A DNA stretch of 6,165 nucleotides from positions 1 to 6,165 of the forward strand of contig JAGPIU010000068.1 in NCBI GenBank assembly GCA_018054805.1, given 5' to 3'. A program made the translations under genes and the position numbers. The notes under the pieces are model-generated. The model made no database searches. It saw only the letters and a program-made list of their open reading frames with translations, and was not told the DNA's origin. This document shows positions 2,258 through 4,925 of the stretch, piece by piece (position 1 is the first letter of the stretch; the number at the start of each line of letters is the position of its first letter). Origin of the DNA: Paludibacter sp. GTDB lineage: Bacteria > Bacteroidota > Bacteroidia > Bacteroidales > Paludibacteraceae.

Positions 2258-2288
2258 TTGGTTGATATTGAAAAAAGCAATACTTTTG
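2258..2288 (+). promoter_or_regulatory. Bacteroidota promoter for the small RNA or leader
   Basis: TTG at 2258-2260, a 20-bp spacer and TACTTTTG at 2281-2288 form a complete -33/-7 promoter of the phylum type. The expected transcription start is near 2294. No open reading frame of useful size follows before the terminator at 2405-2441, so this promoter either makes a short non-coding RNA or is the distal promoter of a leader in front of purD. Confidence 0.65.
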
Positions 2289-2293
2289 TACTG

Positions 2294-2441
2294 TGATTTT
2301 TTCATAGTATTAGATTTAAGGTTAACAAAGATTGGTAGTAAAGCGTTACTACCTTTCGCGTTTTTATAGGGTAGGTGTTTCCATTTAAACTCTATATATT
2401 TTCAGGGCTGTTCGGATTTTTCCGAATGGCTTTTTTATTTT
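2294..2441 (+). ncRNA. Candidate small structured RNA, about 148 nt (or attenuated purD leader)
   Basis: The segment is bounded by a good promoter (2258-2288) and an intrinsic terminator (2405-2441). It has no protein-coding potential; the only ATG, at 2426, opens a six-codon frame. Structure visible by eye: a perfect 8-bp hairpin, GGTAGTAA at 2334-2341 with TTACTACC at 2346-2353 around an AGCG loop, and a long-range stem, 2311-2321 with 2381-2394 (11 pairs, two small bulges), closing an asymmetric internal loop around that hairpin. The shape (closing stem, large bubble, inner hairpin, separate terminator) resembles 6S RNA in outline. Stand-alone RNAs framed by a Bacteroidota promoter and a terminator, such as the Bacteroidales-1 motif, are known in this order. 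I cannot confirm family membership by eye. It does not contain the conserved SRP RNA loop sequences and is too short for tmRNA or RNase P RNA. A cis-acting leader of purD is the main alternative. Confidence 0.5.
2405..2441 (+). terminator. Rho-independent terminator upstream of purD
   Basis: TTCGGA (2411-2416) pairs perfectly with TCCGAA (2421-2426) around a UUUU loop. The stem extends outward by two wobble pairs, then C2408-G2429 and G2407-C2430. It is followed by TTTTTTATTTT (2431-2441). This is the clearest intrinsic terminator in the window. It ends transcription from the 2258 promoter just before the -33 element of the purD promoter, whose TTG (2440-2442) overlaps the end of the T-tract. 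Confidence 0.8.
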
Positions 2442-2470
2442 GGTAAAAAACTAAAAAATAGCTACTTTTG
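2440..2470 (+). promoter_or_regulatory. purD promoter, -33/-7 of Bacteroidota type
   Basis: TTG at 2440-2442, a 20-bp spacer and TACTTTTG at 2463-2470 give the same spacing and the same -7 octamer as the promoter at 2258-2288; both also share TTGGT at the -33 and GTA after the octamer. The start would be near 2476, giving a leader of about 22 nt to the ATG at 2498. The promoter probably drives purD and the response regulator gene together. Confidence 0.7.
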
Positions 2471-2497: not shown

Positions 2498-3766
2498 ATG
2501 AATATTCTTCTCCTCGGTTCGGGCGGTCGCGAACATGCACTCGCCTGGAAAATTGCTCAAAGCCCACGTCTTACAAAACTTTTTATCGCTCCAGGAAATC
2601 CCGGAACAGCAACAGTTGGAACAAATCTTCCTATTGCGGCCGACGATTTCGACTCAATTAAAAACGCTGTGATTGAGAATAATATACACATTGTGCTTGT
2701 AGGCCCCGAAGATCCTTTGGTAAAAGGTGTAACCAATTTTTTTGCCGACGATGCGGAATTGAAACACGTTACAGTGGTTGGCCCTGACAAAGTAGGAGCA
2801 CAACTCGAAGGAAGTAAGGATTTCTCAAAGCAGTTTATGATGCGTCACAACATTCCGACTGCCGGATATATGAGTGTGAATGCGCAAAATTTCGAAGAAG
2901 GAATTGAATTCCTTAAAAAACTCGAAGCACCCTATGTCCTTAAAGCCGATGGACTGGCAGCCGGGAAAGGAGTATTGATAATCAACGACATAGAAGAGGC
3001 GAAAGCTGAACTAAAATCAATGATAGACGGTAAATTCGGAGCTGCGAGCCAAACAGTTGTCATCGAAGAGTTTCTTTCGGGCATCGAATGCTCTGTATTC
3101 GTAATAACGGATGGTAAAAACTATAAAATTCTTCCTGAGGCAAAAGATTACAAACGCATTGGCGAAGGCGATAAAGGCCTGAATACAGGTGGTATGGGCG
3201 CTGTGTCACCTGTGCCATTTGCGACACCCGACTTTATGAAGAAAGTGGAAGACCGCATCATTCGTCCTACTGTAGAAGGCCTTTATAGTGAGGGAATTAT
3301 ATATAAAGGATTCATTTTCTTTGGTTTAATAAAAGTAAACGGAGAGCCTTTCACCATTGAATACAATGCGCGAATGGGAGACCCCGAGACTGAAGTTGTT
3401 ATGCTTCGATTGAAGTCCGATTTTGTTGATTTGCTCGAAGGTGTAGCCCAGGGGAACTTAAATGAAAAACAGGTGGAATTCGACGAACGTTCGGCAGTAA
3501 CTGTCATGTTGGTGTCGGGAGGTTATCCCGAAGATTATGATAAAGGGAAAGTTATCAACGGGTTAAACAAAACTGAAAACAGCATTGTCTTTCATGCGGG
3601 TACAAAGCAACAAGGCAATCAGATTGTAACAAACGGAGGACGTGTAATTGCAGTGAGCTCCTACGGAAACAGCAAAAACGAAGCACTAGCCACCTCATTC
3701 AAGAATGCACAACTAATTGATTTTGAAAAGAAGTATTTCAGAAACGATATAGGATTCGACTTATAA
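2498..3766 (+). CDS. purD: Phosphoribosylamine-glycine ligase (GAR synthetase)
   Basis: This cytoplasmic enzyme makes glycinamide ribonucleotide from phosphoribosylamine, glycine and ATP, the second step of de novo purine synthesis. The 422-aa length is normal for a monofunctional PurD. The N-terminal domain opens with [11 protein letters not shown] (7-17) and carries GNPGT (33-37) and VGPEDPL (68-74). The ATP-grasp domain has [12 protein letters not shown] (148-159), [13 protein letters not shown] (189-201), [11 protein letters not shown] (228-238) and the PurD signature RMGDPETE (292-299), which contains the acidic metal-binding residues. The C-terminal domain has VMLVSGGYP (336-344), HAGT (366-369) and GGRV (380-383). 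All expected motifs are present and no disruption is visible. The ATG at 2498 gives an N-terminus that starts directly at the first beta strand, and it lies just downstream of its own promoter. The next gene begins 7 bp after the stop, so the two are probably co-transcribed. Confidence 0.97.
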
Positions 3767-3773
3767 AAACGAC

Positions 3774-4925
3774 ATGGCAAAAATACTTGTTATCGACGAC
3801 GAACGAAGCATCAGAAATACCCTGAAGGATATTCTTGAATTCGAAAAGCATGAAGTAGCTTTGGCCGGCGACGGGCAAACCGGACTCGATGCTGCACAGA
3901 GCGAAAGTTTTGACATTATATTTTCGGACATAAAAATGCCGGGAATGGATGGCATTGAACTACTTACAATACTGAAAGAGAAAGAAGTAGAAGCACCTGT
4001 GGTAATGATTTCTGGACATGGAAACATTGAAACAGCTGTAGAATGTATCAAAAAAGGGGCATTCGATTTTATTGAGAAACCTATTGATCTGAACAGACTG
4101 CTCATCACTGTGCGCAATGCCCTCGACAAGAATATTCTTGTTACCGAAACAAAAATCCTGAAAAAGAAGATAGCCAAACGTCATCAAATGATTGGCACTT
4201 CGCAAGCTATAGAAAAGGTAAGAACAATGATTGACAAGGTAGCTCCTACTGACGCAAGAGTATTGATTACCGGTGAAAATGGCACGGGAAAAGAAGTGGT
4301 AGCACGTTTACTATATGAACAAAGCACAAGAATAAATGCGCCATTTGTGGAGGTTAACTGTGCAGCAATACCATCGGAACTCATTGAAAGTGAGCTATTC
4401 GGACACGAAAAAGGTGCTTTTACGTCAGCAATTAAACAACGGATCGGCAAATTTGAACAAGCGGACAACGGCACAATTTTTCTCGACGAAATTGGTGACA
4501 TGAGCCTTTCTGCTCAGACAAAAGTACTTCGTGTGCTTCAGGAAAGTGAACTAACACGCGTGGGTAGCGACAAAAGCATAAAAGTGAATGTGCGTGTGCT
4601 CGCTGCCACGAATAAGAATCTGAAAAAGGAAATTGAAGCAGGAAATTTCAGAGAAGATCTTTTTCATCGCCTGAATGTAATTCCGATTCACGTGCCTTCG
4701 CTCGACGACCGAAAAGAAGACATTCCACTACTAATCAATCACTTTTGCGAACTTATTTGTAACGAACAGGGCATTCAGCTAAAAAAATTCGATGCCGCTG
4801 CTGTTGAGTCTTTGCAACAACGTTCGTGGACAGGAAACATTCGTGAACTTCGCAACGTGGTAGAGCGTTTAATTATTTTAGGTGGACGCTCTATTTCAAA
4901 AGCAGATGTAGAAATGTTTGCCTGA
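3774..4925 (+). CDS. NtrC-type sigma-54 response regulator lacking a DNA-binding domain
   Basis: The 383-aa protein has two domains. Receiver (1-120): acidic pair Asp8/Asp9, phospho-acceptor Asp52 in SDIKMPGMDG, Ser80 and Lys102 in EKP. AAA+ sigma-54 activator domain (about 138-370): Walker A GENGTGKE (167-174), sigma-54 contact loop GAFTSA (214-219, where GAFTGA is usual), Walker B GTIFLDEIGD (233-242), FREDLFHRLNV with arginine-finger candidates Arg293 and Arg299, and sensor II SWTGNIRELRN (351-361). The protein stops about 22 residues after that helix, at EMFA, where NtrC-like proteins normally continue into a Fis-type helix-turn-helix. The sequence after the stop shows no sign of a frameshifted remainder, so the short form looks genuine. 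FlgR of Helicobacter is a known regulator without this domain and can act without specific enhancer binding. No histidine kinase is in view. The gene lies 7 bp behind purD and probably shares its transcript; targets cannot be read from the sequence. Confidence 0.93.
   Translation: MAKILVIDDERSIRNTLKDILEFEKHEVALAGDGQTGLDAAQSESFDIIFSDIKMPGMDGIELLTILKEKEVEAPVVMISGHGNIETAVECIKKGAFDFIEKPIDLNRLLITVRNALDKNILVTETKILKKKIAKRHQMIGTSQAIEKVRTMIDKVAPTDARVLITGENGTGKEVVARLLYEQSTRINAPFVEVNCAAIPSELIESELFGHEKGAFTSAIKQRIGKFEQADNGTIFLDEIGDMSLSAQTKVLRVLQESELTRVGSDKSIKVNVRVLAATNKNLKKEIEAGNFREDLFHRLNVIPIHVPSLDDRKEDIPLLINHFCELICNEQGIQLKKFDAAAVESLQQRSWTGNIRELRNVVERLIILGGRSISKADVEMFA

Follow-up and report, generated by a model that had tools for sequence, protein, structure and literature searches.

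A small RNA gene upstream of purD

The window, a 6,165-nucleotide stretch of DNA from a Paludibacter-like bacterium, carries an AraC-type regulator gene at 1025 to 2200 (HTH_18 above cut-off) and purD at 2498 to 3766 (GARS_N, GARS_A, and GARS_C), both on the + strand. The intergenic stretch between these neighbors is a stand-alone small RNA gene, as the initial annotation had favored, and the same RNA gene recurs at many loci. That annotation was also right that the stretch holds no reading frame (no ORF of at least 50 amino acids over 2258 to 2441 on either strand) and that purD has its own promoter past the terminator, with the -7 element TACTTTTG read from the sequence at 2463 to 2470 (+ strand). 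In locus L002, the RNA gene lies downstream of a GH97 glycosidase gene rather than an AraC-type gene.

The promoter annotated for the RNA gene is present as well. Its -33 element, TTGGTTG, lies at 2258 to 2264 (beginning with TTGG at 2258) and its -7 element, TACTTTTG, at 2281 to 2288, both on the + strand, giving the canonical Bacteroidota promoter expected of FopS. Because a sigma-70 promoter scan of 2100 to 2600 found none and a loose TTG-N19-TAnnTTTG pattern with two mismatches occurred in the window no more often than by chance (43 matches versus 43.2 expected), support for this promoter comes from homology: the -7 box TAnnTTTG is found in 184 of 195 related genes, and TTG falls between -38 and -27 in all 27 genes with the far palindrome described below.

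A search of Rfam matched FopS (RF04319) to positions 2293 to 2370 at 59.6 bits, above the gathering cut-off of 56 bits and over model positions 1 to 71 of 71. This is the sole match above a cut-off, and 6S, 6S-Flavo, Bacteroidales-1, and riboswitches are all absent from the six matches listed at E ≤ 10, so that FopS takes the place of the 6S-like and Bacteroidales-1 families guessed at earlier. Judged by this match, the RNA is a member of the FopS family from outside the Bacteroidaceae, the host family being itself inferred (see below). Its short form would span about 74 nt, from 2293 to 2366 on the + strand, with both ends predicted.

An 8-bp hairpin with an AGCG loop occupies 2334 to 2353 (+ strand), exactly where the initial annotation drew it, and is followed by TTTCGCGTTTTT; folding, alignment, and covariation all point to it, and it stands where short FopS RNAs have their terminator hairpin. 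The intrinsic terminator named by the same annotation was recovered by a terminator scan at 2404 to 2438 (+ strand; stem 2404 to 2433, 13 pairs, T tract) and is a second, distal one, located inside a sub-threshold GibS match. That scan returned two terminator-like sites in 2100 to 2600, where 0.5 were expected; the other site is the minus-strand reading of the first hairpin. The region from 2290 to 2441 folds with a z of -5.6. Transcription probably stops past the first hairpin in most cases, giving the form of about 74 nt, and in some at the second terminator, the longer form of about 145 nt arising where the first hairpin is read through.

Compensatory changes support the first hairpin; the long-range stem (2311 to 2321 with 2381 to 2394) that had been proposed alongside it is not supported. 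Across five distinct relatives of the same length, 97.5% of hairpin cells are paired versus 22.5 to 60% in slid controls, and three hairpin pairs change on both sides; 48 of 500 shuffles reached three such changes, and none reached the pairing and covariation score. Covariation was measured on these five rows in place of the 50 mixed-length rows on which RNAalifold gave no consensus structure and no pairs, because the hairpins vary in length. In the alignment of 50 relatives (out of 123 distinct ones), TTTTTCAT and GTATTAGATTTAAGGTT are invariant and the hairpin 3' of them varies; since the seed pattern was used to retrieve these rows, the invariance of the seed is partly selection. The long-range stem can be drawn but is an unlikely fold, its four outer pairs having about 3% probability and costing 2.7 kcal/mol when forced. 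L003 retains a variant of the stem's 3' arm that is two bases longer; the stem was not seen in L126, L267, or L380. The outline of a closing stem and bubble is accordingly not the likely fold in our predictions.

From about 601 to 2625, a stretch that takes in the AraC gene, the RNA, and the beginning of purD, the window and L001 are 93 to 100% identical per 75 nt. We rejected this near-identity as a sign of constraint, since the tract has sharp edges, with identity falling to 56 to 84% in 1 to 600 and 71 to 92% in 2626 to 3825. Such a fall on both sides marks recombination or a mosaic assembly.

The seed, its predicted targets, and its spread

The seed, TTTTTTCATAGTATTAGATTTAAGGTTAA, lies at 2297 to 2325 (+ strand) and, by alignment and a duplex survey, is complementary to a start codon region (antisense ...ATACTATGAAAAAA); its complement reads CTTAAATCTAATACTATGAAAA, a translation start. 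In the predicted fold it is mostly unpaired, except for CAT and the last bases. The R1' seed, a criterion for FopS, is an exact pattern match in the window and likewise in L001, L002, and L003. FopS RNAs of Bacteroides thetaiotaomicron are described as binding susC starts and blocking translation, with RbpB countering them (PMC11697453).

Targets and copy number were derived from relatives. When the first 39 nt of the window's RNA were paired with 45-nt start regions from 792 kb of genome G003, which has the same seed, 13 SusC starts gave a mean of -16.0 kcal/mol versus -10.3 kcal/mol for 522 others (Mann-Whitney P 5e-5), and duplexes of -15 kcal/mol or below formed at 8 of 13 SusC starts versus 49 of the 522. 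Thirty shuffled seeds gave a SusC-to-other difference of 0.2 ± 0.8 kcal/mol, against -5.6 kcal/mol observed. The top single duplex is not with a SusC start; several other high scorers adjoin susC genes. A smaller set agrees (30 SusC starts, taken from 54 SusC matches, versus 45 others, P 2e-4). First ATGs served as presumed start codons. Computed in a relative, these duplexes suggest that the seed is antisense to translation starts and prefers SusC, as would be expected from the published mechanism of FopS. A search of G001 and G003 for near-full antisense targets (at most 3 mismatches in 22) hit only the RNA genes themselves, and such targets were discarded. Three RRM genes are present in each of G001, G002, and G003.

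With up to two mismatches, 120 of 150 genomes from the same family contain the seed pattern, as do 76 of 393 from the order and 13 of 14 picked from the loci, the miss being Labilibaculum. Read backwards, the pattern gave no match among the genomes listed, and 72 of the 82 places listed have the exact seed although two mismatches were allowed. We infer that the family is Paludibacteraceae because the L003 and L006 genomes, each labeled Paludibacter, belong to it. A covariance search across the phylum (296 genomes), run with strict filters and scoring at most 16 candidates per genome, found at least five at E ≤ 0.01 and at least three over the cut-off, G001 among them. The pattern matches five times in G001 and four times in G003; the G001 figure compares with 14 FopS RNAs in B. 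thetaiotaomicron and 12 to 15 in named Bacteroides (PMC11697453). Two FopS genes with the same hairpin lie about 4.3 kb apart in L003 (4532 to 4606, - strand, and 248 to 322, + strand), one before purD and the other beyond a thiL-like gene, pointing to a recent local duplication or conversion.

An upstream palindrome as a candidate Cur site

Just 5' of the promoter, and overlooked in the initial annotation, is a 22-bp palindrome, AAATATGTTATATAACATAATT, at 2211 to 2232 (unstranded), centered 71.5 nt upstream of the predicted RNA start. We regard it as a candidate site for Cur, the BT4338-type regulator. It fits wwwTATGTTnTAnAACATAwww, the published consensus for BT4338 (named Crp, later Cur; PMC3878776, PMC6989115), at 22 of 22 positions, a fit found in none of 200 shuffles. 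Allowing one mismatch, the palindrome ATGTTnTAnAACAT lies upstream of 94 of 195 FopS-type genes, against 0.28 expected from shuffles, and downstream of none of the 195; a first set of genes had given 37 of 84, against 0.2 expected. ATGTTnTAnAACAT equals the core of the BT4338/Cur consensus, a match noticed after the motif had been found. FopS places found in the family and order genomes were fetched in part, and the 195 genes leave out viral loci, duplicates, and loci with less than 110 nt upstream or 60 nt downstream. With near relatives and multiple copies from one genome among them, they are not independent; they include GibS-like genes, and the Bacteroides/Phocaeicola label also covers Parabacteroides and Prevotellamassilia loci.

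The palindromes occupy set positions, with centers at -72 (24 genes), -58 to -62 (34 genes), -28 to -32 (35 genes), and -90 (one gene). Between -38 and -27, TTTG is found in 3 of 37 near-site genes, 39 of 51 mid-site genes, and 6 of 27 far-site genes, and TTG in 25 of 37, 51 of 51, and 27 of 27, respectively. By analogy, the sites at -72 and -60, about one helical turn apart and upstream of the TTG -33 element, would resemble activator sites of the Crp family, as would the site at -28 to -32, whose promoters seldom have a TTTG -33 box.

Exact core sites number 13 in G001 and 8 in G003, versus 1 and 2 for the reversed control. Of the 16 sites fetched, 4 belong to FopS genes; 7 of the 12 others lie by genes judged from sequence to serve sugar use (arabinose-, epimerase-, sugar-permease-, or glycosidase-like). 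The center of the site is 40.5, 41.5, 50.5, 57.5, or 62.5 nt from the -7 box at the sugar genes, with one at 8.5 nt; at FopS genes of the same genomes the distances are 19.5 and 59.5 nt, and the 195-gene set yields 48.5 nt. The distances at sugar genes are compatible with activation and not decisive. The 22-bp Cur site of fusA2, used as a probe in 10 genomes with three mismatches, was set aside, as it gave two hits and its reversed control also two; both probe hits, in G837 and G838, lie immediately 5' of FopS genes, and the fusA2 promoter itself did not turn up.

One Crp-type protein group is common to five genomes (G001, G002, G003, G832, and G837), and we take its members as candidate Cur orthologues. 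The four members compared are 56 to 80% identical, and all five, that of G001 included, share LSREDLANLSNMTTSNAIRTLS. The B. muris and P. massiliensis members are 77.7% identical; the published figure for BT4338 and its B. vulgatus orthologue is 77.3%. Each candidate gene (L461, L463, L466, L470, and L473) has one or two similar palindromes with one to three mismatches, starting 29 to 48 nt ahead of the frame, as would be expected for autoregulation; Ravcheev et al. describe a site of this kind ahead of BT4338. A scan of nine further Crp-type loci over their full length gave two hits at up to two mismatches, a threshold that differs from that used for the group.

It is quite possible, if short of probable, that FopS here is simply as described and that Cur is uninvolved, the palindrome being a repressor site for another factor or a structural element. 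Cur binding is predicted, no palindrome within two mismatches was found at 74 of the 195 genes, and the reversed pattern does turn up in G001 and G003; against this stand the identity to the published consensus, the sugar-use genes beside most of the fetched non-FopS sites, and the set and phased positions of the palindrome. Together, these patterns suggest that Cur controls the FopS RNAs. As to direction, published work reports that FopS and GibS are anticorrelated and that GibS is highest on mucin or during starvation, conditions in which Cur is active, which disfavors activation; on balance we still lean toward Cur as an activator of FopS. The largely open-access journal literature searched contained no link between Cur and FopS; the mention of Cur in the available text of the FopS paper concerns colonization only (PMC11697453), and some carbon-limitation sRNAs, BTnc140, BTnc195, and BTnc364, are reported near BT4338 sites (PMC10294740).

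We consider it highly probable that the window encodes a trans-acting FopS sRNA, the best explanation of the whole, with probable control by Cur. Transcription would start near 2293 from the Bacteroidota promoter and would probably be set by a Cur-type Crp/Fnr regulator at 2211 to 2232, in a direction that is itself predicted. The exposed 5' seed would pair across the start codon of mRNAs for SusC-type transporters and of some other polysaccharide-use mRNAs and, as in the B. thetaiotaomicron papers, block translation, an action that an RRM protein of the RbpB type may modulate.

As presented in PMC11697453, FopS was found by BLAST with a 28-base word in the family Bacteroidaceae plus one phage, and its transcriptional regulator is unknown. 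The present data place the seed in another Bacteroidales family, where the computed duplexes again favor SusC starts, and place the Cur consensus core at set promoter positions in about half of the genes examined. The RNA extends an already known family to a further bacterial family, and its link to Cur is likely. If so, Cur would be the regulator that the FopS paper leaves open, and this master sugar regulator would act both directly on promoters and, via near-identical RNAs that block start codons, on SusC translation, making transcriptional and translational control of polysaccharide use one circuit. There is a reasonable chance, somewhat better than even, that, throughout the Bacteroidales, the Cur regulon has a conserved arm made up of FopS RNAs.

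Comparison with known RNAs and related elements

Like FopS of B. thetaiotaomicron (RF04319, PMC11697453), the RNA has a 5' GUG with a U run, the seed CAURGUAUUAGAUUUAAGGUUAA followed by a hairpin, its own canonical promoter, and, judged from relatives, several copies per genome, and its seed is complementary to SusC starts, here by computation. It differs in its probable origin outside the Bacteroidaceae, in its GUGA plus six U 5' end, in a U tract offset from the hairpin (UUUCGCGUUUUU), in its second terminator, and in its purD neighbor.

The 5' region, overall length, and distal terminator are also shared with GibS (RF04182, PMC7366714), a 145-nt RNA with two seeds and promoter motif PM2 that responds to GlcNAc, mucin, or starvation. 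The GibS model aligns over 2295 to 2438, distal terminator included, and gives 42.4 and 51.7 bits for the two copies of L003. In the window, however, it scores 38.8 bits, far under its cut-off of 115 bits; the FopS-type seed GTATTAGATTTAAGGTTAA is intact and free of GibS substitutions, in contrast to the GTATTAGATATAAGATTAA seen at this place in the GibS-like genes of Bacteroides-group genomes; and the canonical promoter, not PM2, has TACTTTTG and the palindrome, both of which are missing from L324, L338, and L344, loci termed GibS-like by sequence and not by Rfam search. A GibS orthologue is thus an unlikely identity for this RNA, and FopS is the assignment that we retain.

MasB of B. thetaiotaomicron is a Cur-activated sRNA that targets BT_1675, with Cur dependence shown (PMC10994844). 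Control by Cur would be common to both RNAs if the predicted palindrome is a Cur site; the RNA and the target are different. Spot 42 of Escherichia coli is a sugar-use sRNA under a Crp-type regulator and is repressed by CRP. It is alike in outline only; its sequence is different, and we claim no relation.

The initial annotation had offered, as an alternative, a cis-acting leader that ends transcription ahead of purD on a purine or folate signal; the RNA does lie upstream of purD, on its strand, with a terminator at its end, in a position common to L001, L002, and L003 (MAGs labeled Bacteroidia and Paludibacter sp.), but this is very improbable, as no riboswitch family matched in Rfam, purD has its own -7 box past the terminator, the same RNA sits at other loci in G001 to G003 and in many genomes, and only these 3 of 80 purD loci have it, leaving 75 of the 78 with at least 400 nt upstream without it.

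The 19-nt core of the FopS seed was also noticed in 42 viral contigs, with a TAnnTTTG promoter before it in 21. By pattern, the FopS core is missing from 9 of the 42, five of which (L101, L102, L107, L113, and L122) share one other sequence. In 12 viral contigs the FopS core is joined to a hairpin-like 3' part without a TAnnTTTG promoter, and 9 of these 12 elements lie 16 to 50 nt past the end of an open frame (loci for the viral-contig observation: L083, L087, L088, L097, L103 to L106, L108, L110, L115, and L121). Phages may therefore carry FopS seeds as the 3' ends of mRNAs. An association with tRNAs was dismissed; ARAGORN, run on 11 viral loci, predicted tRNAs in L103 alone, and there kilobases away from the element.

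A second multicopy RNA-like family has its own seed, TTTTTCATAGTTAAGGTTTAGGTTAA, followed by a hairpin and a T tract (L134, L136 to L140, and L143, at about 1501 to 1570). It has no Rfam match at E ≤ 0.05, and its preference for SusC in G003 is not significant (P 0.08). Close copies occur in G002 and G003, and the family is present in 59 of 120 genomes of the bacterial family, with none for the reversed control.
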